DNA of 40,480 nucleotides. Source: Trinickia symbiotica. Lineage in GTDB: Bacteria; Pseudomonadota; Gammaproteobacteria; Burkholderiales; Burkholderiaceae. The stretch spans positions 1 to 40,480 of the forward strand of contig NZ_PTIR01000035.1 in assembly GCF_002934455.1 (NCBI RefSeq), read 5' to 3'. Positions 2,996 to 33,850 of the stretch are shown in pieces. Each line of letters opens with the position of its first letter. Position 1 is the stretch's first letter. The notes beneath the pieces were generated by a model that saw nothing but the letters and a program-made list of their open reading frames with translations, had not been told where the DNA came from and searched no databases. The translations under genes and the position numbers were made by a program.

Positions 2996-3024
2996 TTGTA
3001 TCCAACCATACCTTGTTGTACATT
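2996..3024 (+). promoter_or_regulatory. Predicted promoter with GTAT-N6-ATAC operator
   Basis: TTGTAT (2996-3001) and TACATT (3019-3024) are separated by 17 bases. The operator TTGTATCCAACCATACCT (2996-3013) covers the -35 box and most of the spacer. The start codon of the acyl-CoA synthetase is about 48 bases further on. Confidence 0.5.
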
Positions 3025-3071
3025 ACCAAGTGCAATCTGGCGCATCGAACAAGATACGGAGACACCCTCAT

Positions 3072-4646: not shown

Positions 4647-5028
4647 TGCGCGACCGTTCTAGTTGTGCATTGCTGCTCCATCGACGCTCCGGAGAGCAGC
4701 GGCGCCCTATCGCTCTGGCTGCTGCGCCCGATGAGAAGGTAGGACTGAACAGCCGAGCGTGAGCAGCACTGATGCAGCGCAACTCGCGGGCCGAAGTTAC
4801 ATTGTATGTCTGTTTATCGTATGCTACCGTATCGCTCAAGCACAATCGAGCCGTCTTCTGCAAGAGGGCACGGTCATCCGCCCAACGGAGACTCGACGGT
4901 GCGGGGTTTTGATCTGACTGCCGGGGATCGCAATCTGGGCAGCGTGCAATTGTTCTCGATGCGGACGCCGCCTATCACCGCTGGGCAAACCGCTCAAGGC
5001 AGCGGACTGACGCGAACTGGAGATGAAG
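4647..5028. promoter_or_regulatory. Gap with a degenerate operator-like site
   Basis: This 382-bp gap before the old yellow enzyme gene holds no convincing gene. At 4817-4834 the sequence TCGTATGCTACCGTATCG resembles the operator at 37059, but its right half-site is GTAT instead of ATAC, so it may be a weak binding site or chance. No clear terminator was found after the acyl-CoA synthetase. Confidence 0.3.
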
Positions 5029-6187: not shown

Positions 6188-7573
6188 ATGAATTACGACT
6201 ACAAAACGGGCTTTGTGGCTTATCCTGACGCGGAACCCGGCAGCCCCGCCGCAAAGGCGCCCTATGTCGATAACGGTAAGGCTCGCATCGACCCGCGCCG
6301 TTACTACACGCATGAGGAAGCGGCGCTCGAGTGGGAGCATATGTGGACGAAGAGCTGGGTGTTCGCCGGGCTCGCGCACGACATCCCGAACATCGGCGAC
6401 TGGTTCAAGGTCGAACTCGGCAAGGAATCGTTCATTGTCGTCCGCAACGCGGAGGGCGATGACGGTATTGCCGCGTATTTCAATCTGTGCCCGCATCGCG
6501 GCAACCGTATCGTTCATACCGATTTCGGCAATGCCGGTAGCGGAAGCTGCTTTCAATGCGACTTTCACGGGTGGAAGTTTGGTCTCGATGGCAAGAATGT
6601 CGAAATCCGTGACGAGTTTCTCTTCCGCAAGGAAGCCGTCGCGCATCGCCCGGGACTGAAGCCTATCCGCTGTGGCGTCTGGAACAGCCTCGTTTTCATC
6701 AGTGTAGCTCCCTCCGGCAAGTCGCTCGCGGAGCATTTGGATAACATTCCGAAGCACTTGGCGCCCTACCCCTTCGAAAAGTACCGTGTAATCCGCGACA
6801 TCGAAACCTGCTGGAACGCGAACTGGAAAACAGCGCTCGACGCTTTTATCGAGTTCTATCACGCCGACGACGTCCATCCGCAGCTGCTGACTTTCACCGA
6901 GACCCTCGAGTGCCAGTACGACCTTTACGCCAACGGGAACAGTCGGATGATCATTCCTGTCGGATACGTGACAAGCAGGAACGAGGACCGCGAAACCGTG
7001 ACGGATGCGCTCAAAGGCTTCCTGCAGTTCTATGGCGGCAACCCGGACGACTACGTCCACCTGAAAGGCCACGAGTACTATAAGGCGCTAGTGGATGTCC
7101 GGAGGAAGTGGGCCAAGCGCCACGGGTACTCGCATTTCGACGATCTCAGCGACGCGCAAATCAACGATGATTGGAATTATTTTGTATTCCCTAACATCAC
7201 CATCAACGCATTCAGCGATGCGCTTCTGATCCAGATTTTTTCGCCGCACGAGAGCGATCCGAGCAAAAGTTACTACCGGGCGATCTCGCTATGTCTGCCC
7301 GTCGGTGGAACGCAGGACATGGTCATGGACCCTGGTCAATTCGGGCCCGAGGCCATGTCGCCGCCGGGCTGGGATGGATCGGAGCGACCGGCAAAGATCA
7401 TTCCGCAAACCCTTGCCGATTTCGGCTCTGTGCTGGCGCAAGACGCCGTGCGAGTGCCGGAAGTTCAAAAAGGTATCGAGTCCATGGCGTTTGACGGCTA
7501 CGTGCTATCGGAATCGGAGTGCCGTATCCGGCACTACCATGCCGAGATCGATCGGCTCATTGGCCGCAAATGA
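6188..7573 (+). CDS. Rieske non-haem iron oxygenase, alpha subunit
   Basis: This 461-residue ring-hydroxylating oxygenase large subunit has Rieske 2Fe-2S ligands C101-x-H103 (CPHRGN) and C124-x2-H127 (CDFHGW). The mononuclear iron site lies in NWKTALDAFIEFYHADDVHP, with H225 and H230 as likely ligands. These enzymes insert one or two oxygen atoms using electrons from a ferredoxin and reductase. The start at 6188 is behind AGGAGAAGGGG. No beta subunit, ferredoxin or reductase is encoded in the window, so it is either an alpha-only oxygenase or borrows electron carriers from elsewhere. Its place between the old yellow enzyme and the small monooxygenase-like gene suggests an early oxidation of a cyclic substrate. 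Regiochemistry and substrate are unknown. Confidence 0.93.
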   Translation: MNYDYKTGFVAYPDAEPGSPAAKAPYVDNGKARIDPRRYYTHEEAALEWEHMWTKSWVFAGLAHDIPNIGDWFKVELGKESFIVVRNAEGDDGIAAYFNLCPHRGNRIVHTDFGNAGSGSCFQCDFHGWKFGLDGKNVEIRDEFLFRKEAVAHRPGLKPIRCGVWNSLVFISVAPSGKSLAEHLDNIPKHLAPYPFEKYRVIRDIETCWNANWKTALDAFIEFYHADDVHPQLLTFTETLECQYDLYANGNSRMIIPVGYVTSRNEDRETVTDALKGFLQFYGGNPDDYVHLKGHEYYKALVDVRRKWAKRHGYSHFDDLSDAQINDDWNYFVFPNITINAFSDALLIQIFSPHESDPSKSYYRAISLCLPVGGTQDMVMDPGQFGPEAMSPPGWDGSERPAKIIPQTLADFGSVLAQDAVRVPEVQKGIESMAFDGYVLSESECRIRHYHAEIDRLIGRK

Positions 7574-8088: not shown

Positions 8089-9330
8089 ATGGATTTCGGT
8101 CTTAGTTCGCGCGGGCGAGATTGGCTCGCACGAGTACAGACGTTTCTCGATGAGCACGTTTATCCGAACGAGGAACTCTACGAGGAACAGCTCGGGCATG
8201 AGTGCGACGATCCATGGCGAGTTCCCCCCATCATGCTGGAGCTCCAGAACAAGGCGCGAGAAGCCGGGCTATGGAACATGCATATCCATGACCCTCGCCA
8301 CGGGCCAAGCCTGAGCAACGTAGACTATGCGCCGATTGCGGAGGCGTTAGGTCGAGTCCACTGGGCATCCGAAGTGTTCAACTGCAACGCTCCGGACAGC
8401 GGCAATATGGACCTCCTGTCGCTATTCGGCAGCCCTGAGCAGCAGGAAAAGTGGCTGAAGCCCATGCTGGCCGGTGAGATCAAATCCTGCTTTGCAATGA
8501 CCGAACCGGCTGTGGCGTCTTCCGACGCCACCAATGTCGAGACCCGGATCGAGCGCGATGGCGATACGTACGTCATCAATGGCAGGAAGTGGTGGATCAC
8601 CAACGCTTTCAACCCGCGCATGAAAATCATGATCGTGATGGGAAAAAGCGATCCGAACGCTCCACGCCATAAGCAACAGACGCAGGTCTTGGTGGAACCC
8701 AACGCGCCCGGTGTGAAGATCGTCCGGCCGCTGCCGATCTTCGGCTACTACGACCGCCCGCACGGGCACGGCGAGATCGTCTTTGAGAATGTTCGTGTAC
8801 CCGCCGAGAACGTCATACTTGGTGAAGGAAGAGGCTTCGAAATCGCGCAGGGCCGCCTGGGGCCAGGCCGTATACATCACGCAATGCGGATCATCGGCGT
8901 TTCGGAACGGCTCCTCGAAAAGCTATGTACGCGGCTTTCTTCGCGGGTGGCATTCGGCAAGCGCCTTTCGGACGAAGGCGTCTGGCAAAACCGCATTGCG
9001 CGCGCTCGCATTAACATCGAAATGAGCAGGCTTCTCGTATATAAGACGGCTTGGCTGATGGATACGGTCGGCGTCAAGAATGCCCGCAGCGAAATTTCGC
9101 AGATCAAGGTGATCGTTCCCGAACTGGCTCAAAGTTTGTGTGACGTCGTCCAGCAAGCGTACGGCGCAGCGGGCATGTGCGACGATTTCGGCTTGGCGTA
9201 CACCTTCGCGCGCCTGAGGGTCATGCGTATCGGCGATGGGCCCGACGAAGTCCACAACCGAGTTATTGCACGCAACGAGCTGAAGAAGTACGCCTCGCCG
9301 AAAGCGAACGAGGTATGCGCGCATGACTGA
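8089..9330 (+). CDS. Acyl-CoA dehydrogenase, ACAD10/11 type
   Basis: This 413-residue FAD-dependent acyl-CoA dehydrogenase has the FAD/substrate blocks CFAMTEPAVASSDATN and GRKWWITNA. The segments GRLGPGRIHHAMR and IGDGPDEVHNRVIARNEL are those of the ACAD10/ACAD11 clade. In that clade the enzyme works with a phosphotransferase on 4-hydroxyacyl-CoAs: the hydroxyl is phosphorylated, and the dehydrogenase then eliminates phosphate and shifts the double bond (known for human ACAD10/11 and the bacterial LvaA/LvaC levulinate route). The very next gene, overlapping by 8 bp, is that kinase-like partner. A strong AAGGGGGG ribosome site precedes ATG 8089. The substrate chain is not deducible. Confidence 0.9.
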   Translation: MDFGLSSRGRDWLARVQTFLDEHVYPNEELYEEQLGHECDDPWRVPPIMLELQNKAREAGLWNMHIHDPRHGPSLSNVDYAPIAEALGRVHWASEVFNCNAPDSGNMDLLSLFGSPEQQEKWLKPMLAGEIKSCFAMTEPAVASSDATNVETRIERDGDTYVINGRKWWITNAFNPRMKIMIVMGKSDPNAPRHKQQTQVLVEPNAPGVKIVRPLPIFGYYDRPHGHGEIVFENVRVPAENVILGEGRGFEIAQGRLGPGRIHHAMRIIGVSERLLEKLCTRLSSRVAFGKRLSDEGVWQNRIARARINIEMSRLLVYKTAWLMDTVGVKNARSEISQIKVIVPELAQSLCDVVQQAYGAAGMCDDFGLAYTFARLRVMRIGDGPDEVHNRVIARNELKKYASPKANEVCAHD

Positions 9331-10396
9331 TCGTCAGGAAATGCTGAGCGGCACGGAAGCACCCCCCGAACATCTTGCGCTGGACGTCGATAGGCTCGCG
9401 GCGTTCCTCGCCCCGCAGTTGGAAGGATTGGCAAGAGACTTCCGCGTCGAAAAGTTCAAAGGCGGACAGTCGAACCCCACTTATAAGCTGAGCGGACGAG
9501 ACAAGAGCTACGTTTTGCGCCGGCGCCCGCCAGGCCCATTACTGCAGTCTGCTCATGCGATCGATCGCGAATACCGAATCACGAAAGCGCTGTCGGAAAT
9601 CGGATTTCCGGTACCCCGCCCCGCCCTCTATTGCGAGGACGAAGGTGTCATCGGCTCAGCGTTTTATGTTACCGAGTTCGTCGAGGGACGAGTATTCTGG
9701 AACGCCGATCTGCCGGGCGTAGACAAAGCGCATCGAACGCTCATCTATGACTCGTTGAACGACTTTCTCGCCAACCTACATCAGCTCGACTATCGAGCGC
9801 TCGGCCTAGAGACGTTCGGCAGAGAGAGCGGCTTTACCGCCCGCAATCTGAAGCGCTGGTGCACCATTTACGAGGAATCCAAGCTCGAGGATGTGCCCGA
9901 TATCGACTGGTTGATGAAGGCACTCCACGATCGGCTTCCTAACAATGAACCGACGGCCATCCTGCACGGCGACTTTGGCTTGTACAACGCCATGATTCAC
10001 CCGACGGAGGCCAAAGTTCGGTCGGTGCTCGATTGGGAGCTCTCGACACTGGGGAATCCCTATGTCGACCTAGCACATAACACACGTGCCTGGTGGGAAC
10101 CGACCGGCTACGTGGAAGGCACCGCAACGACGCTAGTCGGGCTCGACCTGAGTAAGCTCGGCATTCCCAGTATGGAAAGCTATCTGGAGCGCTACTGTCG
10201 TCGCTCCGGTATCAGCGCTATACCCAATCTGAAGTTCTATCTGAGCTTCGTTCAATTCAGATATGCCGTGATGATCCAGGGCATCTTGAAGCGTGCATCG
10301 GCGGGAACGAACGCGAACCGACGCATCGTACATACCCAGGATCGCGTGGCTGCTATCGCCGCTCTCGCGCGAAGAACGCTTACCGCTCCCGAATAG
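9323..10396 (+). CDS. Aminoglycoside-phosphotransferase-like kinase (ACAD10/11 kinase-domain type)
   Basis: This 357-residue APH-fold protein has the kinase catalytic loop HGDFGLYNAMIH and metal-binding DWELSTLGNP, as in active phosphotransferases. The N-terminal blocks KGGQSNPTY and LLQSAHAIDREYR and the segment EGRVFWNADLPG match the kinase half of ACAD11 and LvaA, which phosphorylate the 4-hydroxyl of 4-hydroxyacyl-CoA. It overlaps the acyl-CoA dehydrogenase by 8 bp, so the two appear to be translationally coupled and act as the split form of a fused animal protein. A GAGGT site lies upstream. Antibiotic resistance is an unlikely role given the context. A small LvaB-like partner was not found. 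Confidence 0.87.
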   Translation: MTDRQEMLSGTEAPPEHLALDVDRLAAFLAPQLEGLARDFRVEKFKGGQSNPTYKLSGRDKSYVLRRRPPGPLLQSAHAIDREYRITKALSEIGFPVPRPALYCEDEGVIGSAFYVTEFVEGRVFWNADLPGVDKAHRTLIYDSLNDFLANLHQLDYRALGLETFGRESGFTARNLKRWCTIYEESKLEDVPDIDWLMKALHDRLPNNEPTAILHGDFGLYNAMIHPTEAKVRSVLDWELSTLGNPYVDLAHNTRAWWEPTGYVEGTATTLVGLDLSKLGIPSMESYLERYCRRSGISAIPNLKFYLSFVQFRYAVMIQGILKRASAGTNANRRIVHTQDRVAAIAALARRTLTAPE

Positions 10397-13160: not shown

Positions 13161-13952
13161 TCAGATTTGCATGCCGCCGTCGACAGCGAGCGACTGACCC
13201 GTGATGTAGCGCGCACGCGAAGAGAGCAAGAACAGCGCGGCGTCCGCGATATCGCGGGCCTCGCCCAGGGCACGTAGCGGAATGCTCTTCTTGATCATCG
13301 CCACCGCTTCGGGCGTCAATTCCTGTTCGATGACCTGCTGCCCTAAGCCCGCGGCCACCCAACCGGGGCCAACGCAGTTGGCTCGTACGCCATTGCGTCC
13401 CTCCTCCTTCGCTACACCGCGCATGAGCATTTCGATAGCGGCCTTCGGTGCTGCGGATTGAATATCTCTGGCCGGCACACGTTCAACCGCTGCGGTGATT
13501 ATGGCAACATAAGCGCCGCGAGCTTTGCGGACGTGCGGCAGCGTGGCATGCACAAGGTTGAAGCAGCCGTTGACGTCGACGGCCATGACATTTGCCCATT
13601 TGACCGGATCGATATCGCCAATCAACTCCATGTGCAACCCGGGGCCCGAGGCGTAGACGACGGAGTGCAAAGATGCATGGCGCGACGTCACATCATCGAT
13701 GAACCTGGACACGCCTGCCGCATCCTGAATCGCCAGCCCTGCGACCTCCGCCTTTCGCCCCATGGCCGTTATCTGTCCCGCAACCTCTTCCGCCGCCTTT
13801 CTATTTCGCCCGTACGTCAGGACGACGTCGCTTCCCGCGCGCGCCAGCGTCAGAGCGATTTCGCGGCCGATACCGCCGCTTCCCCCGGTAACGATCGCCA
13901 CCCCTTCCTTGAATCGTGGCTCTTGCGCAAGCCAGGTCTGTTCCACGTCCAT
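13161..13952 (-). CDS. SDR-fold protein with a degenerate active site
   Basis: This 263-residue protein has an intact Rossmann loop (VTGGSGGIGRE) and a C-terminal AVDGGMQI typical of classical SDRs. At the expected YxxxK the sequence is SAAPK (S166...K170), so the catalytic Tyr is Ser, and the usual Ser of the SS motif is in ITAAV without a serine. NNAG is replaced by YASG. It may be inactive, use a different catalytic arrangement, or act as a partner subunit. The start at 13952 follows GGACGGAAA. It lies 178 bp downstream of the MeaB-like gene, at the end of the mutase operon. Confidence 0.82.
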   Translation of the reverse strand: MDVEQTWLAQEPRFKEGVAIVTGGSGGIGREIALTLARAGSDVVLTYGRNRKAAEEVAGQITAMGRKAEVAGLAIQDAAGVSRFIDDVTSRHASLHSVVYASGPGLHMELIGDIDPVKWANVMAVDVNGCFNLVHATLPHVRKARGAYVAIITAAVERVPARDIQSAAPKAAIEMLMRGVAKEEGRNGVRANCVGPGWVAAGLGQQVIEQELTPEAVAMIKKSIPLRALGEARDIADAALFLLSSRARYITGQSLAVDGGMQI

Positions 13953-14130: not shown

Positions 14131-15108
14131 TCAAGCCGACGCTTTGTTAAACAATCGGTCCGAGAGATCATAGGGATCGATCTTTCGATTCAATGCGTCC
14201 AACAGCAGCTGCGGATCGCCTCCATGTTCGTCTAATTCACGTTCGATGCGACGACCTATGACGTCCTTTGCAATCTCGAACGCGCGAGCTCGTAATTGCG
14301 TCAAAGACGATTCCTGCGCGGCCGCGGGATGCGCGCTCAGGAAGTCAAAGCGACGCTGAATCTTTTCGTACAACTCATCGACTCCGCGTCCTGTGGTAGC
14401 TTCGGTTGCGACGACATCGGGATACCACCCTTTCAAAGTGTTCTGGTCATTGCGCGAGTGGACCATCTCCCTAAGAGCGTTGACCATGCGATGGCTTCCA
14501 GCAACGTCGGCCTTGTTGACAACGAAGATATCCCCGATCTCGAGAACGCCGGCCTTCGATAACTGCGTCTCGTCACCGCTCAAAGCAGTTTGCAAAAGAA
14601 CGATGCATGACGCGTAGCGCATGACATCCATTTCACTCTGGCCTATGCCCACCGTCTCCACGACGATGACATCCCAGCCCATCGCGTCCATGATAGTCAG
14701 GGCGTCGCCTGCCGCCATCGCGAGGCCACCGAGCGCTCCACGCGACGCCATACTTCGAATGAAGACGGCCGGATCCGAATCGTGGCGATTCATACGGACC
14801 CGATCGCCCAATAATGCGCCGCCCGAATAAGGACTCGACGGGTCCACGGCGAGGACTGCAATTCGCTTTCCGTGTCGTCGATACGTCGCAATGAGCTGAT
14901 CTAGCAATGTGCTCTTGCCTGCTCCTGGAGGACCAGTGATCCCAATCAGTTGCGCTCGCCCTCCATGGCGGTAAAGCTGCTTCACGACGTCACGGATAGC
15001 TGGATCTCCGTTTTCAGCTCTCGTGATCAGCCGTGCAACGGCACGTAGATTCCCTGACAGGACGGCGTCGACCTGTTGAGCAACTGATATCCGTTCAAGT
15101 TCACTCAT
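14131..15108 (-). CDS. meaB: MeaB/ArgK-type GTPase, chaperone of the B12-dependent acyl-CoA mutase
   Basis: This 325-residue G3E-family GTPase has the Walker A motif GPPGAGKST, a VDPSSP segment and NKAD as the base-recognition motif. MeaB proteins gate cofactor loading of B12-dependent mutases and protect them from inactivation. The start at 15108 overlaps the stop of the B12-binding subunit (ATGA), which is the likely coupled start, rather than an ATG six codons upstream. The gene order of large subunit, B12 subunit, GTPase strongly suggests one functional unit. A specialised partner, as in HCM/MeaH or ICM/MeaI pairs, is as plausible as true MeaB. Confidence 0.92.
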   Translation of the reverse strand: MSELERISVAQQVDAVLSGNLRAVARLITRAENGDPAIRDVVKQLYRHGGRAQLIGITGPPGAGKSTLLDQLIATYRRHGKRIAVLAVDPSSPYSGGALLGDRVRMNRHDSDPAVFIRSMASRGALGGLAMAAGDALTIMDAMGWDVIVVETVGIGQSEMDVMRYASCIVLLQTALSGDETQLSKAGVLEIGDIFVVNKADVAGSHRMVNALREMVHSRNDQNTLKGWYPDVVATEATTGRGVDELYEKIQRRFDFLSAHPAAAQESSLTQLRARAFEIAKDVIGRRIERELDEHGGDPQLLLDALNRKIDPYDLSDRLFNKASA

Positions 15109-15515
15109 TGCACAGGAGGCAGGCAAGCGCTGCGAACAAAGGCCAATATTTCCGACGTAGCAGACCCGGGACCAAATATTCCTGATACGCCGATTTTCCG
15201 CAGCGGCTCGTGGTCATCCGGATGCACGAGGCCGCCTACCATGACTGGCACGTTGCCGACACCGCGCGCGTTCATTGCGTCGATGAGCTCTTTTGCGTAG
15301 TGAAGATAGGTAGCGATCGAGAAACTGATGCCGACGAGATCGACGTCTTCCTGGATCACTGCGTTCACCATACCATCGACAGTGTTGTGCTCACCTAGGT
15401 ACACCACCTCGATCCCATTGTCTCGAAACAGCTGCGCCAGCGTGCGGATTCCCTTGGTATGCACGTCCGTACCAAGCATTCCAAGTAGGCAGCGAATTTT
15501 CCTTTCACCGGTCAT
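15105..15515 (-). CDS. B12-binding small subunit of acyl-CoA mutase
   Basis: This 136-residue protein is a stand-alone cobalamin-binding domain. The lower-ligand motif DVHTKG (D17-x-H19-x-x-G22) is a clear DxHxxG, so H19 should coordinate cobalt base-off. GISFSIAT and MVGGLVHPDD cover the nucleotide-loop and GG regions. The length matches the separate small subunits of isobutyryl-CoA and 2-hydroxyisobutyryl-CoA mutases (about 136 residues) and not the fused methylmalonyl-CoA mutase. It is 7 bp downstream of the large-subunit stop and overlaps the GTPase by 4 bp. Confidence 0.93.
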   Translation of the reverse strand: MTGERKIRCLLGMLGTDVHTKGIRTLAQLFRDNGIEVVYLGEHNTVDGMVNAVIQEDVDLVGISFSIATYLHYAKELIDAMNARGVGNVPVMVGGLVHPDDHEPLRKIGVSGIFGPGSATSEILAFVRSACLPPVQ

Positions 15516-15522
15516 ATCTCAC

Positions 15523-17187
15523 TCAGCTCTCGGTATAGGTAAAAGGTGATTCGATCACCCTGAAGGGATCGTACGGCAGGCCATTCGCCACACGAACCGT
15601 ACCCCAAACCTCGCCAATGGAAGCATCCGCGATCAACGCGTCAATCATGGCTTGGTGTGAATTCTCGCGGCGCTTCGCCACGCGGTAGAGTGTTTGGATT
15701 CGTTCCGCGAGTTGCGGCTGGTCGCGGGCCGCCTTCATTTCCTTGAACCGTTGTAGATGGCTCGCCATCATCCGCTGGTCGAACGAAAAGCGCTTTGGAG
15801 GCGGCTCGTCTTTCGGAACAAATGCGTTCACCCCAACCTGTATCCGCTTTTTGCTGTCGAGTTCTTGCTTCTGGTTGTAGTTGAACTCATCCATCAAACC
15901 TTCGATGTAGCCATCCTCGATGGCCTTGACCAACCCGATATCCTCGATCTTTCCAAGCATCGTCAACGCGTCGGCTTCGACTTGATTGGTGAGGCTCTCG
16001 ATGTAATAGCTTCCGCCGAGCGGATCAGCGACGCGCGCCGCCCCGATTTCGTGCGCCAAAATTTGTTGGGTGCGCGTAGCCAGTTCCCGGGCTTCTTCAG
16101 TGGGAATGCAGACCGGTTCATCATAGGTACAGGTTTCGACTGATTGCACCCCACCGAGCAGTGCTGCCAGCGTCTGCACGGCGGCACGGGACAGATTGTT
16201 GAGCGGTTGCTGGTACACCAGGGAGCGACCGGAGGTATGACATGCGATCCGTAGCCGTTGCGCGCGGGGATCGTTCGCTCCGAAACGTTCCCTCATGGTG
16301 CGTGCCCAAATCCGTCGTAAAGCGCGAAACTTCGCTATTTCCTCAAAGAAGTCGATGTCCGACGGCGACACCCAGGCCATACTCGGGCACACCTGATCCG
16401 CTGTCATGCCGCGTGCGCCAAGGTCCATAAGCGTCTGGTTGACGATCGCCATGCCTACGGCGATTTCGCCGGCTGCACCGAGGCCTCGCTCGCGCATGTC
16501 GTACGCCTGCGGGCACCCCAGAGCCCAGCGAGGACTGTTCTTGGCGCTGTACTCGATGCAGTCCACTGTCGTCCGGTGGCCCAACTCCGCGGGAACGATC
16601 TTTTCGCTCCAACCGGCAAGTCTCAGTTGCAGATGGTCCGGCATGTGCGAACCTTGCAGCTTCGCCATGTCCTTCCCCTGCTTCTGTGCCAGCGCCGCGA
16701 CCAGCGGATAAGTCATCATGGTGCTATGCCATGCAACGTCCTGCTGGGTCACGTCGATACCTTGCAGCAACACCTCCATGTCTCGCACGCACGAGATCGA
16801 ACAGCCCTCCTGGCCGGCGTCGTTGGTTAGCGCGGGGTGGTCAGCGTCGATCGCCTCCTGTCCGAGCGTATCGACAACGATATTGATACCCGCCGTGCCC
16901 ATTTGCAGCGCACGTTCGATTCCACCGCGCGTGTCTTCCGGCGCCCCGAAGCCAACAATATTACGCAGGGTCCACATGCGGCTTCGGTACATCTGAGGAT
17001 ACGCACCACGCGTATACGGATATTGTCCTGGATCACCGAGATCACGTTCGTAGTCAACGTTCGCGGCGTCTGCCGGGCCGTAACTCGCGTTCGTTTCAAG
17101 ACCACTCCACGTGGCGGTACGCGACAGCTTAACTTCAACGTTCGCGATGTTTTCCGCCAAAGACGAACCACCCTCGTTCCCTTTCAT
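15523..17187 (-). CDS. Coenzyme B12-dependent acyl-CoA mutase large subunit, unusual substrate site
   Basis: This 554-residue radical mutase TIM-barrel subunit rearranges the carbon skeleton of an acyl-CoA together with the B12 subunit. The family blocks YPYTRGAYPQMYRSRMWTLR and ARVADPLGGSYYIESLT are clear, and the length fits the two-subunit ICM/HCM type. By eye alignment, Tyr89 of methylmalonyl-CoA mutase is kept (Y63). The carboxylate-binding Arg207 position is Gly (about G192), the Gln197 position is not Gln, and the active-site His244 in GYHMQEAG is Asp (AYDMRERG, D230). The substrate is therefore unlikely to be methylmalonyl-CoA. ATG 17187 has GGAGGGAC directly upstream; an in-frame extension to 17268 lacks support. 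It lies in the minus-strand operon with two acyl-CoA dehydrogenases and a hydratase. Confidence 0.93.
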   Translation of the reverse strand: MKGNEGGSSLAENIANVEVKLSRTATWSGLETNASYGPADAANVDYERDLGDPGQYPYTRGAYPQMYRSRMWTLRNIVGFGAPEDTRGGIERALQMGTAGINIVVDTLGQEAIDADHPALTNDAGQEGCSISCVRDMEVLLQGIDVTQQDVAWHSTMMTYPLVAALAQKQGKDMAKLQGSHMPDHLQLRLAGWSEKIVPAELGHRTTVDCIEYSAKNSPRWALGCPQAYDMRERGLGAAGEIAVGMAIVNQTLMDLGARGMTADQVCPSMAWVSPSDIDFFEEIAKFRALRRIWARTMRERFGANDPRAQRLRIACHTSGRSLVYQQPLNNLSRAAVQTLAALLGGVQSVETCTYDEPVCIPTEEARELATRTQQILAHEIGAARVADPLGGSYYIESLTNQVEADALTMLGKIEDIGLVKAIEDGYIEGLMDEFNYNQKQELDSKKRIQVGVNAFVPKDEPPPKRFSFDQRMMASHLQRFKEMKAARDQPQLAERIQTLYRVAKRRENSHQAMIDALIADASIGEVWGTVRVANGLPYDPFRVIESPFTYTES

Positions 17188-17292: not shown

Positions 17293-18090
17293 TTAAGACT
17301 TTTTGCCAAGTTTTTCGCGCAGTGCGGCGAACAGGTTGCGGAATTCATCGCCGAAAAACAGGCCGCTGGCCACGATGCGCTCCACATTGCGCGCCTGAGC
17401 CCGGTCAAGGTCAGCGCACAATTCGATGGCGAGCTTCGCGGCGCCGATCGCTTCGGCGGGTTGCTTTGCCAAATTGAGACAGAACTCCCGTACCCTCGCT
17501 TCGAATTCCTCGTCGGAATAGACATCGTGGATCAGGCCGATACGCTCGGCTTTGGCAGCATCCATTTGCAGGTTCGCCATGATGAACCAGCGCGCCCACT
17601 GAGGCCCCACCAGCCGAGCCATCCGGCTCGTACCGCCAGACCCGGGAATGTTGCCGAATGCTGTCTCCGGCAAACCATAACGGGCGCTTTGTGCCGCGAG
17701 GCGGAAATCACAGGATAGCGACATCTCCAGCGCACCACCAAGGCATGGACCATGGTGAGCAACGACAATAGGCTTTTCGATGACCTCGAAGCGATCGAGC
17801 AGCGGGTGCAAGCTGCCACGGCCTTCTCGGTACCATTGGCGGAACGCCGTCGGGCTCGCCAGACTAGGATCGGGGCCGAGTTCGCTGTTGAGATCGACAC
17901 CCGCGCTGAAGTACTTGCCGCGCGCGCGAATCAGCATCACACGCAGCGAAGGTTCGGTAGCAAAGCGCTCCGTCTGTACGATCAACGCATCGTACATCTC
18001 ACCATTGATGGCGTTCAGTTTGGATGGGCGGTTCAATACCAGTTCCAAAATCCCATCGGATTCCGAAGCCAGCACAAGGGGTTCGCTCAT
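17293..18090 (-). CDS. Enoyl-CoA hydratase/isomerase (crotonase)
   Basis: This 265-residue crotonase-fold protein has the oxyanion-hole segment GKYFSAGVDL and CLGGALEMSLSCD with a Glu at the first catalytic position. LPETAFGNIPGSGGT carries the second Glu, so both general acid/base Glu of true hydratases are present. The start at 18090 (MSEPLV) follows AGAGGATG; an upstream open frame to 18303 overlaps the dehydrogenase and is not family-like. It is 22 bp from the acyl-CoA dehydrogenase and probably hydrates the unsaturated thioester made by that pair, upstream of the mutase in the operon. Confidence 0.9.
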   Translation of the reverse strand: MSEPLVLASESDGILELVLNRPSKLNAINGEMYDALIVQTERFATEPSLRVMLIRARGKYFSAGVDLNSELGPDPSLASPTAFRQWYREGRGSLHPLLDRFEVIEKPIVVAHHGPCLGGALEMSLSCDFRLAAQSARYGLPETAFGNIPGSGGTSRMARLVGPQWARWFIMANLQMDAAKAERIGLIHDVYSDEEFEARVREFCLNLAKQPAEAIGAAKLAIELCADLDRAQARNVERIVASGLFFGDEFRNLFAALREKLGKKS

Positions 18091-18112: not shown

Positions 18113-19312
18113 CTACCGGCGCAACAACGCGCCCGCAATGATGTTGCGCTGAATTTCGTTGGAACCGCCGAAGATGCTCCAGCATCGGCCGTAGAGGTAG
18201 GCGTAGTTGATTGCCGCGGCCTGTCGCCATGGCTCTGATGCGCCAAGCCCTCCATCTCTGCGACAGGTCGGGTCATAGCATGCCCCGTACACGCCAAGCG
18301 CATCTCGCCAGAACTCGGTCATCCGCTGCAGCAATTCCGTGCTGAGCACTTTAAGAACCGATGCGCCGACGCCGTCATCGCGCCCAGCTTCCCATTCATC
18401 GAAGTATTGGCGCTCCAAGGCGACCAACGCGGTGAGACTGGCTTCGATCTCCATCATCCGCGCCCGCGCAAGCGTTCGCTCCACATCCGGCATTCGAGCG
18501 GCATAATTGGAGAAGGTCTCCTTGATCTGCCGCATTTGCCGGATCCTGCTTCCAGTATCCGCAATTGAAGTTCTCTCTCGCGACAACAGGAATTTTGCAA
18601 TCTTCCAGCCTTCGCCTTCGGCACCGACCAGGTTCTCGGCGGGCACACGAACGTTGTCGAAAAACACCTGATTCGTATGGTGCTCGCCATCCAGCGTCAC
18701 GATAGGTTCGACCGTGATGCCGGGCGTGCGCATGTCGATCAAAAGAAAGCTAATGCCTTGCTGCTTTTTGCCGGAACCATCTGTGCGAACGAGACAATGC
18801 ATCATGTCCGCCCAATGCGCTTCTGTCGTCCACATCTTGGTACCGTTGACGACGTAGCACTCCCCATCGCGCACTGCCGCCGTCGACAACGAGGCCAAGT
18901 CCGACCCGGCATTCGGCTCCGAGTATCCTTGGCACCACCACGTGTCGCTGCTGAGGATACCTGGCAGGTATCGACGTTTCTGTTCTTCATTGCCGAAGGT
19001 GTAGAGCACGGGGCCGACCATGCTGACGCCATAAGGAATGATCATGGGCGCCGCATTGAGAGCGCACTCCTGCAAAAAGGCGTGCTCCTTTCGCATTGAC
19101 CAGCCCTGTCCGCCGAACGCCACGGGCCAATTCGCCGCGAACCAACCGCGACGGTGCAGCGCCTTTTGCCAGCCAACGTAGTCGGCTTTCTCCAGGTAAA
19201 GGCCGTTTTCTACCCGGTACCTGGTCTCGGCAGCAAGTTCGGAACGCACGAACGCCCTGACCTCTCGCCGAAACGCGGCCTCGTCGAATTCCGAATCTAC
19301 ACCACTCTCCAT
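18113..19312 (-). CDS. Acyl-CoA dehydrogenase, probable catalytic subunit of a pair
   Basis: This 399-residue acyl-CoA dehydrogenase has WCQGYSEPNAGSDLASL (FAD/substrate), GTKMWTTEAHWAD and the C-terminal FGGSNEIQRNIIAG. The helix-G block SRERTSIAD keeps a Glu at the position used as catalytic base in isovaleryl/long-chain-type enzymes. It begins 57 bp after the neighbouring dehydrogenase gene, which is shorter and lacks that Glu. AGGAGAG precedes ATG 19312. Partnership of catalytic and non-catalytic subunits, as in actinobacterial steroid dehydrogenases, is inference. The product would be the substrate of the hydratase that follows. Confidence 0.9.
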   Translation of the reverse strand: MESGVDSEFDEAAFRREVRAFVRSELAAETRYRVENGLYLEKADYVGWQKALHRRGWFAANWPVAFGGQGWSMRKEHAFLQECALNAAPMIIPYGVSMVGPVLYTFGNEEQKRRYLPGILSSDTWWCQGYSEPNAGSDLASLSTAAVRDGECYVVNGTKMWTTEAHWADMMHCLVRTDGSGKKQQGISFLLIDMRTPGITVEPIVTLDGEHHTNQVFFDNVRVPAENLVGAEGEGWKIAKFLLSRERTSIADTGSRIRQMRQIKETFSNYAARMPDVERTLARARMMEIEASLTALVALERQYFDEWEAGRDDGVGASVLKVLSTELLQRMTEFWRDALGVYGACYDPTCRRDGGLGASEPWRQAAAINYAYLYGRCWSIFGGSNEIQRNIIAGALLRR

Positions 19313-19369: not shown

Positions 19370-20470
19370 CTAGCTACCCGAAGCCGCGCTTTGGTCGACC
19401 CAAGCGCGTATCAGCCGCGTCAAGACCACCAGCCTTGCATTGCAATGACTGACGATCAGTTCGTCGGTCACGCCCATGCCCCCATGCATCTGAATGGCTT
19501 CCTGACCAACCAATTTCGCTGCCCGTTCGACCACCGAGGATGCAGCAAAACAAAGCCAAGCGTGGTCCCCCGATGTCGCCGCATCGACGCGGCCGGCAAG
19601 CTCGCGCGTAATGGCTTGGGCCTGAACGAGACCCATGTGCATATCTGCATACCGGTGCTGTAATGCCTGAAACGTCCCGATAGCGACGCCGAACTGGACC
19701 CGAGTACGTAGATATTCGCCTGTCACTTCCAAAAGCAATGCCATAACACCGACCGCGTCCGCGCAGTAAGCGCTGACGGCCCGCCGGCTTGCGAGGTCCA
19801 TGGCCTCTCGAGCAGCCTCCCCTTGAACCCATGCGGTCGATAATGGAATAGCCGTGTCATCGAAACGAATGTCAGCAGCCGGCTTACCGTCCATAAGGCG
19901 ATAGCCGGCGACATGCGCCCGTGTCTCTGAACGGGGAACCCGAAAAATCGCAGGTGTGCCATCGCTGTCAACCGCCATCAGCAGCCAGAAATCAGCCTGT
20001 TCCGCGAAGGGAATGAGCGACAAATTCCCAGATAAGCGGTAACCCTCTTGGGTTTTCTTGAAAGAGAGCTGGTCCGGCACGTCTGAGCGGCCGCCAAGCA
20101 TCGCCGTCACGCTCGCGCCCTCGATCGCTTGCGTGACAGCGTGCCCCCGTTGCTCCGGATCTCGACCACGCGCGAGTACAGTGCCAGCAATCACCGCTGA
20201 TTCGATGAAGGGCTCGAAGATCAAGCCTTTAGCCAATACTGTCACAGCATCGGCGATATCGGCACTGGCTCCGCCGAGGCCCCCGAAAACTTCTTCGAAA
20301 GGTAGCCCGAGCACGCCGAGCTGCGCCAAGAGCCCCCAGTGCAGCAAGCAATCCACGTGGCCTTGTCTCACGCGCTGATGCCGTGCGCTTGGCTCATAAG
20401 ATTCTGCGATGAAGCGGAGCAACGTATTTTCGATAATGCTCTTCGATTCGCGGTCCAACGGAGAACTCAT
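19370..20470 (-). CDS. Acyl-CoA dehydrogenase-like protein, probable non-catalytic partner
   Basis: This 366-residue acyl-CoA dehydrogenase fold protein has RTRVQFGVAIGTFQALQHR and QMHGGMGVTDE. The helix-G block reads LASRRAVSAYC, with Ser where a base Glu would sit, and the C-terminus lacks the GGS/EGT-type segment, so both usual catalytic Glu positions are empty. This is the pattern of a structural subunit in a heteromeric dehydrogenase. ATG 20470 (MSSPLD) follows TGAGGTGG; an upstream frame reaches 20533 without support. It is the first gene of the mutase operon, behind a palindromic operator at 20541. Confidence 0.85.
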   Translation of the reverse strand: MSSPLDRESKSIIENTLLRFIAESYEPSARHQRVRQGHVDCLLHWGLLAQLGVLGLPFEEVFGGLGGASADIADAVTVLAKGLIFEPFIESAVIAGTVLARGRDPEQRGHAVTQAIEGASVTAMLGGRSDVPDQLSFKKTQEGYRLSGNLSLIPFAEQADFWLLMAVDSDGTPAIFRVPRSETRAHVAGYRLMDGKPAADIRFDDTAIPLSTAWVQGEAAREAMDLASRRAVSAYCADAVGVMALLLEVTGEYLRTRVQFGVAIGTFQALQHRYADMHMGLVQAQAITRELAGRVDAATSGDHAWLCFAASSVVERAAKLVGQEAIQMHGGMGVTDELIVSHCNARLVVLTRLIRAWVDQSAASGS

Positions 20471-20540
20471 AACCACCTCAGGAGACAACATCTGAACGGG
20501 TGCGATCCCCACCCGACCTTTGATCGCCAGCACTCAAATT

Positions 20541-20860: not shown

Positions 20861-20917
20861 CTTTTGCTCCTACCGCAGCAGGAACTGGCCAATCAACGTG
20901 AAGGGCGACAAGTGTCG

Positions 20918-22369
20918 ATGAACAACACCTATGGAATCACGGGCTTCGGAGGCTACATACCGCGGCTCCGGATGCAGCGAGCCGCCATCGCCGCCGCGCA
21001 TAAATGGATGGCGCCTAGCCTTCGCTCCCTGAGCAAGGGCCAGCGGGCATTCTGCAGTTGGGACGAAGACGCCGTAACGATGGCTGTCGAGGCGGCACGA
21101 GATGCGCTCGACACCAAGCCAACGTCCCATTTTGTTGCTGTGTCTATGGCGTCCACCACCATGCCGTTTGCCGATTTGCAGAACTCGGCCATCGTCGCAG
21201 GAGCCCTCGGTTTGCCTGCCGACGCAAGGACAATGGACCTAGGTTATTCGCAGCGCGCCGGTACTGCCGGTCTTCTTGCAGCCCTGCAATCAGCATCGGG
21301 GCCCGCGCTCTTTGTCGCAAGCGACCGCCCTCGCGGCAAACCGGCCAGCACGCAGGAGATCGGCTACGGAGCCGGCGCCGCGGCATTCACTCTCGGTAGC
21401 GAAAACGTTCTGGCGCATGTGATCGGATCTTCTAGCCGCAACGCAATGTTCGTCGATCACTTCCGCGCGGCGAACGCCAAATACGACTATGTCTGGGAAG
21501 AGCGCTGGATTCGCGACGAAGGCTACGCAAAGCTGGTTCCGCAAGCCGTAAGCGCCGCGTTGACGCAAGCAGGTATCCCTGCTGCCGAGGTCAGCCATTT
21601 CATTTTGGCAACACCAATGAAGGGCATCGCCGCGATGATCGCAAAGAGTCTCGGCATTCCTCCTGAAGCAGAAGCCGACAACCTTAGCGAGAACTGTGGT
21701 TTCACCGGTACCGCTCACGGGTTGCTCATGCTTGCGCACGTGCTCGAGCGCGCCGCCCCTGGCGAAGTCATCGTAATAGCCAGTTTCGGCCAAGGCGTGG
21801 ATGTGCTCGTTCTGCGGACAACGGACGCGTTAAAGTCCTTCTCACCCCGCCGTGGCATTAACGGCGCGCTGGCCGACGCACAATCCCACGATGCCTATCT
21901 GCGCATGCTCTCCTATGATGAAGCCATCGAACTCGAGTGGGGCATGCGCGGCGAGAAGGTGCTTAAGACAGCCCTAACCGAACAATACCGGTCCAGTTTT
22001 CAACTGGCCCACTTCATGGCGGGCAAATGTGCCAAATGCGGGGCAATCCAATTCCCTCAATTAGCCTACTGCGTCAATGCTTCGTGCGCAGCACCGAGCG
22101 AAAACTTCCACCAACTCTCTCTAGTGGATGAGAAGTGCCACGTGCTCACTTATACCGCCGATTGGCTCTCGTATCATCCAGCGCCGCCACTCTACGTCGG
22201 TTTCACTCAATTCGAGAACGGCGCTCGCCTGTTGACCGAGACCGTCGACGTCGGCGCAGCCGGGCTCGAGGTGGGCACCCCGCTCAAGGTGGTATTCCGG
22301 ATCAAAGACGTAGACAAAGACCGTGGATATCCGCGTTATTTCTGGAAAACCTCACCGGTACAAGCATAA
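20918..22369 (+). CDS. HMG-CoA-synthase-fold/DUF35 fusion protein
   Basis: This 483-residue protein joins an archaeal-type HMG-CoA synthase-like domain (about 1-330) to a DUF35 zinc-ribbon/OB-fold domain. Ribbon Cys are C371, C374, C385 and C390 (CAKC...CVNASC). The first domain matches archaeal HMG-CoA synthases at GITGFGGYIPRLR, DEDAVTMAVEAARDAL and RAGTAGLL. However, the catalytic Cys of EFACKAGTAG is Gln here (YSQRAGTAG, Q112), the His of FHQPNGK is Ala (about A231), and no Glu aligns with the third residue. Its condensing activity is therefore probably lost or changed. DUF35 partners thiolases in archaeal synthase complexes and in steroid-type aldolases. ATG 20918 is chosen because the N-terminus matches the family. 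The thiolase follows after 11 bp. Confidence 0.85.
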   Translation: MNNTYGITGFGGYIPRLRMQRAAIAAAHKWMAPSLRSLSKGQRAFCSWDEDAVTMAVEAARDALDTKPTSHFVAVSMASTTMPFADLQNSAIVAGALGLPADARTMDLGYSQRAGTAGLLAALQSASGPALFVASDRPRGKPASTQEIGYGAGAAAFTLGSENVLAHVIGSSSRNAMFVDHFRAANAKYDYVWEERWIRDEGYAKLVPQAVSAALTQAGIPAAEVSHFILATPMKGIAAMIAKSLGIPPEAEADNLSENCGFTGTAHGLLMLAHVLERAAPGEVIVIASFGQGVDVLVLRTTDALKSFSPRRGINGALADAQSHDAYLRMLSYDEAIELEWGMRGEKVLKTALTEQYRSSFQLAHFMAGKCAKCGAIQFPQLAYCVNASCAAPSENFHQLSLVDEKCHVLTYTADWLSYHPAPPLYVGFTQFENGARLLTETVDVGAAGLEVGTPLKVVFRIKDVDKDRGYPRYFWKTSPVQA

Positions 22370-22380
22370 GGGGCGCAATC

Positions 22381-23577
22381 ATGGCATCTGGCATCAAGGA
22401 CAAGGTCGCCATTCTTGGCATGGGATGTACGAAATTTGGCGAACGCTGGGATGTAGGCACGCATCAGCTCATGGCGGAGGCTTTTGAAGAAGCGCTGGTC
22501 GATGCCGGGATTGAACGGAAGCAAATCGACGCCGCGTGGTACGGATCCTGTCTCGACGAAATCAACGTAGGCAATTCCTCGATTCCGGCGTCTCTTGCAC
22601 TGCGTCTGGAAGGCGTGCCGGTGAGCCGCATGGAGAATATGTGTGCTACCGGCACCGAGGCGTTGCGCGGTGCCGTCTACGCGGTGGCATCGGGCGCGGT
22701 AGATATCGCCCTAGCGATTGGCGCGGAAAAGCTGAAGGACACTGGCTATGGCGGCCTTCCTGCGCCCTACAAAGGAACGCTGAACGACCTTTGGCTGCCT
22801 CTGGGTTCCGCGCCAGCCGGCTTTGCCCAATTGGCGGCCGGATATCGCGCCAAGCACGGGGTATCGCACGAAGACCTAAAGAGAGCGATCGGCCATGTCT
22901 CGTGGAAGAGCCACGAGAACGGCGTCAAGAGCCCAAAGGCGCACATCCGCAAGAAGGTAACGATGGACCAGATCCTCGGTGCGCCGATGATCGCGGAGCC
23001 GCTTGGCCTATTCGACTGCTGCGGTGTGAGCGATGGAGCGGCCTGCGCAATCGTCACTACACCCGAGATCGCCAGGTCTCTGGGGAAACAGGATCTGGTG
23101 GCGATCAAGGCAATTCAACTCGCCAGCAGCTCCGGTATTGAGTCGCACACAACGCAGTGGGATGGGAGCTACGTCAGAACGACGCGCCACGCAGCTCGAC
23201 GTGCCTATGAGGAAGCGGGCATTACGAACCCGCGCGAGCAGCTGAGCCTGATGGAGGTTCACGACTGCTTTTCGATTACCGAACTGGTTACGATGGAAGA
23301 TCTGTTCGTCTCAGGCGAAGGCAGAGCCGTAACCGACGTTCTCGATGGCTTTTACGATGCTGATGGAAGTGTCCCCTGTCAAATCGACGGGGGCCTGAAG
23401 TGCTTCGGCCATCCCATCGCCGCATCGGGACTGCGCATGGCGTACGAGATCTACAACCAATTGCTGCATCGCGCTGGCGAGCGCCAGTTGGACAATCCAA
23501 CTGTCGGACTCACGCATAACCTAGGCGGCGTTCCCTACCTCGGGGTTGCGGCGATCTCGATTCTCGGTCTTCTCTAA
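22381..23577 (+). CDS. Thiolase-family protein (archaeal/SCP2 type)
   Basis: This 398-residue thiolase-fold protein has the nucleophile block ENMCATGTEAL (C88), the HDCFSITEL His motif and LKCFGHPIAASG. The C-terminus reads THNLGGVPYLG, like archaeal acetoacetyl-CoA thiolases, in place of the CxGGG of bacterial biosynthetic thiolases. It may carry out thiolysis or, like Ltp2-type relatives paired with DUF35, retro-aldol cleavage; the retained Cys argues for thiolysis. It sits 11 bp after the HMGCS-DUF35 gene, and the two likely form a complex. The start at 22381 follows AGGGGCG. A longer frame from 22135 overlaps the upstream gene and is rejected. Confidence 0.9.
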   Translation: MASGIKDKVAILGMGCTKFGERWDVGTHQLMAEAFEEALVDAGIERKQIDAAWYGSCLDEINVGNSSIPASLALRLEGVPVSRMENMCATGTEALRGAVYAVASGAVDIALAIGAEKLKDTGYGGLPAPYKGTLNDLWLPLGSAPAGFAQLAAGYRAKHGVSHEDLKRAIGHVSWKSHENGVKSPKAHIRKKVTMDQILGAPMIAEPLGLFDCCGVSDGAACAIVTTPEIARSLGKQDLVAIKAIQLASSSGIESHTTQWDGSYVRTTRHAARRAYEEAGITNPREQLSLMEVHDCFSITELVTMEDLFVSGEGRAVTDVLDGFYDADGSVPCQIDGGLKCFGHPIAASGLRMAYEIYNQLLHRAGERQLDNPTVGLTHNLGGVPYLGVAAISILGLL

Positions 23578-23639
23578 CGACCCGCGTGGCCGGTTGCCGC
23601 AGGGAAGCGGGAACCGGTGCGCGGGCAGGTACAACAATT

Positions 23640-24893
23640 ATGGCTGAGTACATCGCGGAGGCCGAGCTTGCCCAACTGGTCAAGCCGCAGCACCACATAT
23701 TCATTCCGGGGTCGAGCGGCGAACCTTCCGCGTTCATGTCTGCGTTGCTGCGCGAGCCCAACCGTACACAGCACGCGCACATTCTCACGAGCTACGTTCC
23801 CGGAATCAACAAGCTGGACATCGATCGATTCCATCCCACCGCAGCCGTTAGCGGCTTGTTCATGCAGCCAGGGTTGCACGATGCACAACGCGACGAGCGC
23901 TATCGTTTCCTTCCTGTCACGTATGCGGGATTCGTCCGCCACATCAGGGAAAACGTCGAGCTGGATTTGACTGTGCTCCAGGTCTCGCCGCCCGATGAGG
24001 AAGGGCTGTGCTCACTTGGACCGGCCGTGGAATTTGTCCCGACTGTGATCGGCAGAAGCCGAAGTATCCTCGCCCTGGTAAACCAACGCACGCCGCGGGT
24101 GTCCGGAGCAGCGACCGTTCCGTATTCGCGGTTCGATTACGTATGCGAGGTTGATTCGCCGCTCCCGCAGTACGTCACGCCACTCGACGACAGCTCGATA
24201 TCGGTAGCGCGCCACGTTGCCTCCCTGATCGACGACGGATCAACAGTTCAGATCGGGCTAGGTAGAGTGCCGGCGGCCCTCTGCCTTCAGCTCAAAGACC
24301 GTCGCAACCTCCGATTTCATTCAGGCATGCTTTCCGACGGTTTCGTCGATCTGGCCGCGGCGGGCGCAATCGATGAAAGTTTGATCCACGCCTGCTGTGT
24401 GCTAGTAGGATCCGAATCGCTCTACGGATGGGCAGCCGAATTTGAAGCTCTTCAAGTCGTCGGTTGCGAGGTTACGCACGACCTGCAGACGTTGGCCGGT
24501 AAAGACCGTTTTATCTCGGTCAATTCGGCACTTGAAGTCGATTTGTTCGGGCAATGCAATCTCGAGCATGCTGATGGCCGCTCCATTAGCGGGCCCGGCG
24601 GCGCACCCGATTTCGCGCGTGGGGCACGCCTTTCCAACGGCGGGCGGAGCATCGTCGCGCTTTCGGCGACACACAGTGCCGGAACGGGATCACGCGTGGT
24701 GCCTCAGCTGAGCGAGCGGTCGATCGCGACACTCTCGCGCGTCGACGTCGACTACATCGTCACCGAATTCGGGGTCGCCCGCCTGGTTGGCGCAAGTGTC
24801 CACGAACGCGCCAAGGCGTTGATCGATGTTGCAGCCCCCGCGTTCCGCGAGGGTTTATCGCGTTCCTGGCGTGAGATTGCCGGTTACCTTTAG
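23640..24893 (+). CDS. Acetyl-CoA hydrolase/CoA-transferase family protein
   Basis: This 417-residue class I CoA-transferase family protein has the FISVNSALEVDLFGQ block conserved around the catalytic Glu and VDYIVTEFGVARLVGAS near the C-terminus. Relatives include 4-hydroxybutyrate CoA-transferase and acetyl-CoA hydrolase. The enzyme would either load CoA onto an acid from an acyl-CoA donor or release CoA from a product. It is the last gene of the short plus-strand operon and ends 8 bp before the convergent nitroreductase. ATG 23640 follows CAGGT; an in-frame ATG at 23586 is less family-like. Confidence 0.88.
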   Translation: MAEYIAEAELAQLVKPQHHIFIPGSSGEPSAFMSALLREPNRTQHAHILTSYVPGINKLDIDRFHPTAAVSGLFMQPGLHDAQRDERYRFLPVTYAGFVRHIRENVELDLTVLQVSPPDEEGLCSLGPAVEFVPTVIGRSRSILALVNQRTPRVSGAATVPYSRFDYVCEVDSPLPQYVTPLDDSSISVARHVASLIDDGSTVQIGLGRVPAALCLQLKDRRNLRFHSGMLSDGFVDLAAAGAIDESLIHACCVLVGSESLYGWAAEFEALQVVGCEVTHDLQTLAGKDRFISVNSALEVDLFGQCNLEHADGRSISGPGGAPDFARGARLSNGGRSIVALSATHSAGTGSRVVPQLSERSIATLSRVDVDYIVTEFGVARLVGASVHERAKALIDVAAPAFREGLSRSWREIAGYL

Positions 24894-33812: not shown

Positions 33813-33850
33813 ATCTAGAGCCTTTCCGTTAGAACTTTGCCGGCTTGCGC

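Follow-up and report, generated by a model that had tools for sequence, protein, structure and literature searches.

The 40,480-nucleotide stretch of Trinickia symbiotica DNA analysed here (the window) is an entire contig (G000:C35) of a 6.71 Mb genome and carries three consecutive minus-strand genes for a mutase large subunit, a B12-binding small subunit and a MeaB-type G-protein chaperone (Table 1). Judging from their sequences, we consider it probable that these genes encode a working adenosylcobalamin (AdoCbl)-dependent acyl-CoA mutase of a subfamily that nothing in this analysis ties to a characterised enzyme, with a pocket rebuilt for a bulky, mostly apolar, non-dicarboxylic acyl-CoA and serving a mobile catabolic cluster. 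Computation yielded the family, the predicted fold, the B12 motif, the chaperone gene, a conserved rebuilt pocket, a separate clade and purifying selection.

The large subunit belongs to PF01642 (444.1 bits; Pfam gathering score 22.1) and scores above the cut-off of TIGR00641 (376.2 against 303.8 bits), and the separate small subunit matches PF02310 (74.1 bits) with an intact DVHTKG motif. The chaperone gene overlaps the B12 subunit gene by 22 bases and its product has both a P-loop (GPPGAGKS) and NKAD. Transcription runs from two acyl-CoA dehydrogenase genes (20533-19370 and 19312-18113) through a hydratase-like gene (18060-17293) to the large subunit, B12 subunit and MeaB genes, with intergenic gaps of 57, 52, 105, 7 and -22 bases, and AGGAGG lies immediately 5' of the large-subunit ATG. 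A two-subunit mutase plan, an intact B12 motif, a following GTPase partner and a setting of acyl-CoA dehydrogenase and hydratase genes had all been proposed in an earlier reading of the sequence by eye (the original prediction), and the profile searches and alignments agree with each of these. Promoter and terminator scans of the DNA found 4 and 10 candidates, respectively, against 3.2 and 7.4 expected. Besides the mutase, PF01642 matches only one frame of the genome, 1127 aa long (L002), which from its size and residues appears to be of IcmF type, and the nearest named relative by large subunit is Paraburkholderia sp. PGU19 (plasmid PPGU19_p3, 95% identity).

Substrate-site residues were compared by phmmer to PDB chains, MAFFT with references and profile-profile hhalign, using the numbering of Propionibacterium shermanii methylmalonyl-CoA mutase (MCM). 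Every alignment made placed Asp230 of the window protein at His244, the thioester-carbonyl contact of MCM, and Met182 at Gln197. Position 207 was occupied by Trp193 (phmmer and one MAFFT alignment) or Gly192 (hhalign and another MAFFT alignment), an ambiguity due to a one-residue insertion, and never by Arg. The original prediction had therefore read the losses of His244, Gln197 and Arg207 correctly, its assignment of Gly at 207 holding in part of the alignments, and realignment, which it had named as a possible refutation, brought back neither Arg207 nor His244. Its claim that Tyr89 is retained was wrong, as this column holds Ile77 (phmmer, MAFFT), the same residue as in two rows of 2-hydroxyisobutyryl-CoA mutase (HCM). 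Further substitutions were His328 to Ala315, Gln330 to His317, Thr166 to His154 and Phe287 to Val273, and the column of the HCM Asp, presumably HcmA Asp117, holds Val104. Tyr243 is retained, as are Tyr75, Arg82, Thr85, Arg87, Gln361, Ser362 and Glu370, columns that we expect to hold CoA.

The rebuilt pocket is shared by a large group of proteins. Among 240 matches, comprising the best 120 of 7996 to the window protein and the best 120 of 7938 to a desulfobacterial relative, His244 was found in none and His330 in 235. The window-protein set (63-95% identity) had Ile at 89 in 116/120, His at 166 in 120/120, Met at 197 in 118/120, Asp (117) or Asn (3) at 244, Val at 287 in 120/120, Ala (117) or Ser (3) at 328, and His at 330 in 120/120. 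The desulfobacterial-query set splits into subsets of 40 and 80, in which, among the matches listed, Asp or Asn occupied position 244 in 35/40 (with 3 Gly, 1 Thr and 1 gap) and 79/80 (with 1 Glu), and His occupied 330 in 40/40 and 75/80. All 12 reference rows had His244 and none had His330. Control homologues were taken from 20 places in clade-bearing genomes and 15 places in a class-level draw of 56 genomes, from which two own-genome rows were excluded. The clade-bearing genomes contain 34 places: the window clade accounts for 12 copies and one fragment (G304:C139), and of the remaining 21 all except a second place on G307:C223 served as controls. Four of these 20 rows are incomplete, with columns 89 to 207 missing in two. 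None of the 35 controls had His330, and the Asp244/His330 pair was seen only in the group among the sequences examined.

Nei-Gojobori estimates for the large subunit gave a nonsynonymous rate (dN) of 0.029 and a synonymous rate (dS) of 0.53 against PGU19, and 0.051 and 1.13 against P. rhynchosiae, a pair near saturation, which corresponds to a dN/dS of ~0.05 against the two Paraburkholderia copies. For the B12 subunit and MeaB, dN was likewise far under dS, and the substitution pattern of the mutase genes is one of purifying selection. Given this ratio and the near-fixation of Asp/Asn244 and Met197 in the window-protein set, the substrate-pocket changes are more than chance, and the feature is real and conserved, more so than the eye alignment had indicated. 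The joint loss of the catalytic His244, Arg207 and Gln197 might instead mark a homologue that has lost catalysis or serves regulation, comparable to the MCM beta chain in heterodimers, but we regard this as very improbable: the protein is accompanied by a B12 subunit and a MeaB of its own, DxHxxG and most CoA-contact columns are retained, the new histidines are invariant rather than decayed in the best 120 matches to the window protein, the MutA model TIGR00642 scores 146.4 bits against a cut-off of 617.25, and the window lacks a second large subunit, the one further PF01642 match in the genome being the apparently IcmF-type frame.

Phylogenetic analysis placed the window protein apart from the mutases of known substrate. 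In a quick tree of 100 rows, 41 window-clade rows formed one branch (Shimodaira-Hasegawa-like approximate likelihood ratio test, SH-aLRT, 100) nested in an 88-row set (SH-aLRT 100) separate from the HCM, pivalyl-CoA mutase (PCM) and MCM rows. A careful tree of 41 rows gave the window clade support of 100/100 and split the 12 His244 rows from the other 29 at 100/99; the sister anaerobe group of the clade was supported at just 87/43. The HCM and PCM labels of plasmid genes in the tree are our assumption from their locus tags. The trees cover MCM, HCM, PCM and IcmF rows, without ethylmalonyl-CoA mutase (ECM), characterised IcmA, IaaG or alkylsuccinyl-CoA mutases, and their long stems call for caution. 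A tree had also been named in the original prediction as a possible refutation; the window protein fell outside the MCM and HCM clades, in a fully supported clade of its own distinct from the PCM and IcmF rows as well. The proposal of substrate-site changes with a likely new specificity is partly supported, by the three residue losses and the separate clade and not by the Tyr89 claim.

A divergent member of known specificity (HCM, PCM, isobutyryl-CoA mutase or MCM) catalysing the same reaction would fit the HCM-like Ile77, the HCM structure 4r3u as top PDB match of the large subunit in both structure and sequence, and the placement of PCM, which among the His244 groups branches nearest to it in the careful tree (93/93). 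We nevertheless find this unlikely. Approximately unbiased (AU) tests rejected a single clade of the window clade with HCM (p 1e-41), with MCM (p 2e-5) and with PCM (Xaut_5043 and a Sulfitobacter relative; p 0.007). Of the residues that mark HCM, the Ile is present, whereas Val104 replaces the Asp and Gly/Trp the Gln at 207, and the MCM residues Tyr89, Arg207 and His244 are all replaced. The equivalog models for MCM (NF006944, 311.7 bits against a cut-off of 876) and IcmF (NF045497, 129.3 against 1500, the genes here being separate without a fused G-protein domain) also scored far under their cut-offs. The structural comparison (VIA-align, Foldseek) also returned aminomutases and TIM barrels.

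Relatives of the large subunit at 55-95% identity were found in Paraburkholderia, Hydrocarboniphaga, Sinobacteraceae, Erythrobacteraceae, Rhizorhapis, Hyphomonadaceae, a betaproteobacterial metagenome-assembled genome (MAG), Amycolatopsis, Sporichthya and Parafrankia, and are scattered over Proteobacteria and Actinobacteria. Genome searches at family level (E 1e-100; 1/299 genomes matched) and phylum level (E 1e-130; 1/398) recovered the own genome and no new relative. The B12 subunit gene adjoins the mutase in 13/13 loci, and DxHxxG was intact in all 12 window-clade B12 subunits aligned (five DVHTKG, four DVHSKG, one DVHSRG and two DKHNKG; the Sinobacteraceae row L013 was not in this alignment). 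The position that we take by residue number to be Lys604 of MCM is Met in these 12 subunits; of three anaerobe rows two have Met and one has Ala, and all six rows from HCM, PCM, PCM-like, Streptomyces and E. coli proteins have Lys. In two anaerobe loci (L014 6892-10874 and L022 833-4812), one B12 subunit gene lies between two large subunits. A MeaB gene comes next after the mutase genes in the window, PGU19 (L026), L003, L004, L013, L005, L008 and the second Hydrocarboniphaga copy; the L007 contig stops at the mutase locus.

Fourteen relative gene sets were compared, two being pieces of one MAG and two genomes supplying two sets each. The CoA-ligase family recurs in 10 of them, the Rieske oxygenase alpha subunit (RieskeA) family in seven, E1 beta and the enoyl-CoA hydratase (ECH) family in five each, and the family of the short-chain dehydrogenase/reductase (SDR) at 13161-13952 in four. 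The Erythrobacteraceae stretch contains best matches to 20 different window genes. Both Hydrocarboniphaga copies and the Sinobacteraceae MAG have a set reduced to Rieske, ligase, mutase, B12 subunit and MeaB; the other genes around these sets are mostly without counterpart in the window, and a Pfam scan of them found cytochrome P450 and flavin amine oxidase type proteins and TonB receptors among others, with no clue to the substrate. The window and Rhizorhapis share 90% identity in the Rieske protein and 62% in the mutase, which suggests that the cluster genes travel between genomes. One genome (G301) has two RieskeA-like genes (51-52%) on other contigs.

The losses of Arg207, Gln197 and the HCM Asp, together with Val in place of Phe287, point to an acyl group that is bulky, mostly apolar and not dicarboxylic. 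We infer that AdoCbl homolysis would yield a 5'-deoxyadenosyl radical, which would abstract a hydrogen from the acyl-CoA threaded through the barrel, and that the thioester carbonyl group would then migrate by a 1,2-shift, as in MCM, HCM and PCM, with Asp230 and His317 (plus His154) taking over the carbonyl contact usually made by His244. The Rieske oxygenase and CoA ligase of the cluster may activate a hydrophobic, probably cyclic or terpenoid/steroid-like compound, and the mutase would act between CoA ligation and beta-oxidation, so that a carbon skeleton resistant to beta-oxidation becomes accessible to it. A quaternary-carbon acid is a plausible, unproven substrate; diterpenoid resin acids, compounds of the ionone/abscisic acid type, steroids and tert-alkyl compounds were weighed, and no result discriminates between them.

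Two other reactions were considered. Mutases for bulky substituted succinyl-CoA exist, as described for the benzylmalonyl-CoA mutase IaaGH of auxin degradation in PMC8360864, and one member of the related anaerobe clade, a desulfobacterial Asp244-type mutase (L015 1890-6483), lies near two HGD-D genes (2-hydroxyacyl-CoA dehydratase/benzoyl-CoA reductase type). An arylsuccinyl- or alkylsuccinyl-CoA to malonyl-CoA type mutase acting on an aromatic or alkyl substrate nonetheless seems improbable here, as free-carboxylate substrates would be expected to retain Arg207, which is Gly or Trp in the window mutase. A different AdoCbl-dependent radical reaction on an acyl-CoA, such as elimination or ring contraction/expansion, would be compatible with replacement of the carbonyl-contact residue of MCM and fixation of a new His/Asp set, but the enzyme has the overall fold and subunit plan of the thioester-migrating mutases, and we give this little credence. 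Extending the preferred reading of a thioester-migrating mutase for a bulky apolar acyl-CoA, the Asp244/His330 group might be a second major branch of acyl-CoA mutases with a relocated His/Asp set replacing the carbonyl-binding His of MCM, HCM, PCM and IcmF. The window clade would then be its aerobic arm, acting on a polycyclic acid of terpenoid- or steroid-like type. Following Rieske opening and CoA ligation, skeletal rearrangement would eliminate a quaternary centre (gem-dimethyl or angular-methyl) of this acid, a B12 step in aerobic terpenoid catabolism; this extension is speculative and on balance doubtful.

Several observations weigh against the preferred reading. An H244A mutant of MCM is present in the PDB (1e1c). 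Loss of His244 reportedly harms MCM, and the Asp244-type group could for this reason be slow or differently specialised. At position 244 the 35 controls had 31 His, 2 Asp, 1 Gln and 1 Asn, so that Asp at 244 is not by itself unique to the group, and several controls were also without His328. The substrate class is itself only an inference. No MeaB gene was found beside the mutase in L006, L009, L010, L011 and L012, the RieskeA-cluster gene was missing from the examined stretch in 7/14 relative gene sets, and a RieskeA match at E 1e-60 was missing in 4/11 genomes; in the window the Rieske gene lies ~8 kb from the mutase on the opposite strand. An Rfam scan gave zero matches in the window and three Paraburkholderia stretches, and thus no cobalamin riboswitch there. 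Regarding the controls, homologues L072 and L075 (Sporichthya MAG), L056 and L064 are without His244 (Asp, Asp, Gln and Asn, respectively) and without His330, Arg207 being retained in L072 and L075; they are further unusual lineages of the mutase family.

Table 1 Genes of the window with coordinates, strand and supporting evidence
Feature	Coordinates	Strand	Evidence
FadD-type acyl-CoA ligase	2868-4646	+	PF00501; family recurs near mutase in relatives (cl1)
Old-Yellow-Enzyme type NADH:flavin oxidoreductase	5023-6123	+	PF00724
Rieske oxygenase alpha subunit	6188-7573	+	PF00355, PF00848; family recurs near mutase in relatives (cl2)
Acyl-CoA dehydrogenase	8089-9330	+	PF00441, PF02770; 8-base overlap with kinase-like gene
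APH-family phosphotransferase	9323-10396	+	PF01636
SDR	13161-13952	-	Family recurs with mutase (cl8)
MeaB-type G-protein chaperone	14131-15126	-	PF03308 289.7 bits; TIGR00750 323.3 bits, cut-off 240.75
B12-binding small subunit	15105-15515	-	136 aa; PF02310; DVHTKG; Met at MCM Lys604 position
Mutase large (substrate-binding, TIM-barrel) subunit	15523-17187	-	554 aa; PF01642, TIGR00641
Enoyl-CoA hydratase/isomerase family protein	17293-18060	-	PF00378
Acyl-CoA dehydrogenase; nearest model pimeloyl-CoA dehydrogenase large subunit	18113-19312	-	PF02770, PF02771, PF00441; TIGR03204 371.3 bits, below cut-off 623.85
Second acyl-CoA dehydrogenase family protein	19370-20533	-	PF00441, PF02771
HMG-CoA-synthase-like protein	20864-22369	+	PF08541 above cut-off; NF003274 159.5 bits, below cut-off 244
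Thiolase, PRK06157 type	22405-23577	+	NF004810 643.1 bits, cut-off 403
Acetyl-CoA hydrolase/CoA-transferase family protein	23586-24893	+	PF13336, PF02550
DUF1329	25806-27185	-	
2-oxoacid dehydrogenase E2	28354-29106	-	PF00198
Free lipoyl domain protein, 76 aa	29124-29354	-	Reading frame; name from PGU19 annotation
2-oxoacid dehydrogenase E1 beta	29388-30374	-	Name from PGU19 annotation
2-oxoacid dehydrogenase E1 alpha	30371-31360	-	TIGR03182, below its cut-off
MMPL transporter	31371-33854	-	
YCF48-like	33851-35008	-	
DUF1302	35245-36954	-	Name from PGU19 annotation

The window as a whole may be read as a gene cluster for the breakdown of a hydrophobic compound, in which the DUF1329, MMPL, YCF48-like and DUF1302 genes would form a hydrophobic-substrate handling set. 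The HMG-CoA-synthase-like gene adjoins the thiolase and CoA-transferase genes, and the C-terminal part of its product weakly resembles the ChsH2/DUF35 zinc ribbon (PF12172, 21.6 bits, below the cut-off of 23.2); in archaea, parts of this kind, encoded by separate genes, assemble into a complex. The thiolase is a single open frame in the window and is split into two open reading frames, with no coding sequence listed, on the PGU19 plasmid (L026 13575-14899). The E2 protein had no lipoyl domain in the Pfam scan, and the 76-aa lipoyl protein stands free. RieskeA was considered as a close homologue of the Methylibium PM1 plasmid Rieske oxygenase, which we take to be the tert-butyl alcohol oxygenase MdpJ, and rejected at just 29% over 65 residues. 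The likeness of the cluster to tert-butyl alcohol breakdown is functional only, the Rieske proteins not being close. That pathway is outlined in PMC7176365 with CoA ligase and HCM steps, and MdpJ is cited in the reference list of that paper for the Rieske step. The paired acyl-CoA dehydrogenase and aminoglycoside phosphotransferase (APH)-family genes (8089-10396) may resemble ACAD10/11-type handling of 4-hydroxyacyl-CoAs, which ACAD10/11 phosphorylate according to PMC11342911 and PMC12440821.

Few acyl-CoA mutases have a known substrate. The pocket of the window clade, whose members come from Paraburkholderia, Hydrocarboniphaga, sphingomonad and actinobacterial genomes, differs from those of the reference enzymes compared and has lost the carbonyl-contacting His; it bears on how far radical thioester migration needs His244. 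New mutase specificities (ECM, HCM and PCM) have reportedly each revealed a new pathway, and this enzyme could reveal how aerobes handle carbon skeletons that block beta-oxidation, with the Asp244/His330 pair as a simple marker for finding more members. No Asp244-type mutase was described in the titles and abstracts of the mutase and pathway literature searched, which took in few subscription journals.

Among known systems, HCM (HcmA/HcmB, PDB 4r3u, and the plasmid genes of Methylibium PM1, L028, and Xanthobacter, L027, which we take to be HCM) shares the two-subunit plan with the window mutase, provides the nearest solved fold, and has Ile at the Tyr89 position and a MeaB-type gene nearby; it differs in its 36-38% identity, in having His244, Gln197, Gln207 and Asp at the Val104 column, and in forming a separate clade. 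The presumed PCM (Xaut_5043/5044, L029), whose large subunit is likewise flanked by B12 and MeaB-type genes, is 35% identical, with Leu89, Asn207, Gln243, His244 and Gln330 where the window mutase has Ile, Gly/Trp, Tyr, Asp and His. MCM (PDB 1req; E. coli ScpA, L030) shares the catalytic fold and most CoA-contact residues, whereas its Tyr89, Gln197, Arg207, His244, His328 and Gln330 are all altered in the window mutase. IcmF (PDB 4xc6; presumably L002) is also an AdoCbl acyl-CoA mutase with a G-protein, but it is fused, holds Phe89, Gln207 and His244, and shows 27% identity to the window mutase (L002). IaaGH, compared by description rather than sequence, is similarly a B12 mutase for a bulky acyl-CoA within a catabolic cluster, and differs in its dicarboxylyl substrate (PMC8360864). 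The anaerobe Asp244/His330 mutases (L014, L015, L018, L020, L024; P0121-P0240), among the best 120 of 7938 matches, have Asp/Asn244 in 114, His330 in 115 and Arg207 in two, with His328 lost in all 120; they differ from the window mutase in their 36-38% identity, in the absence or rarity of His154 and Met182, and in their anaerobe gene contexts.

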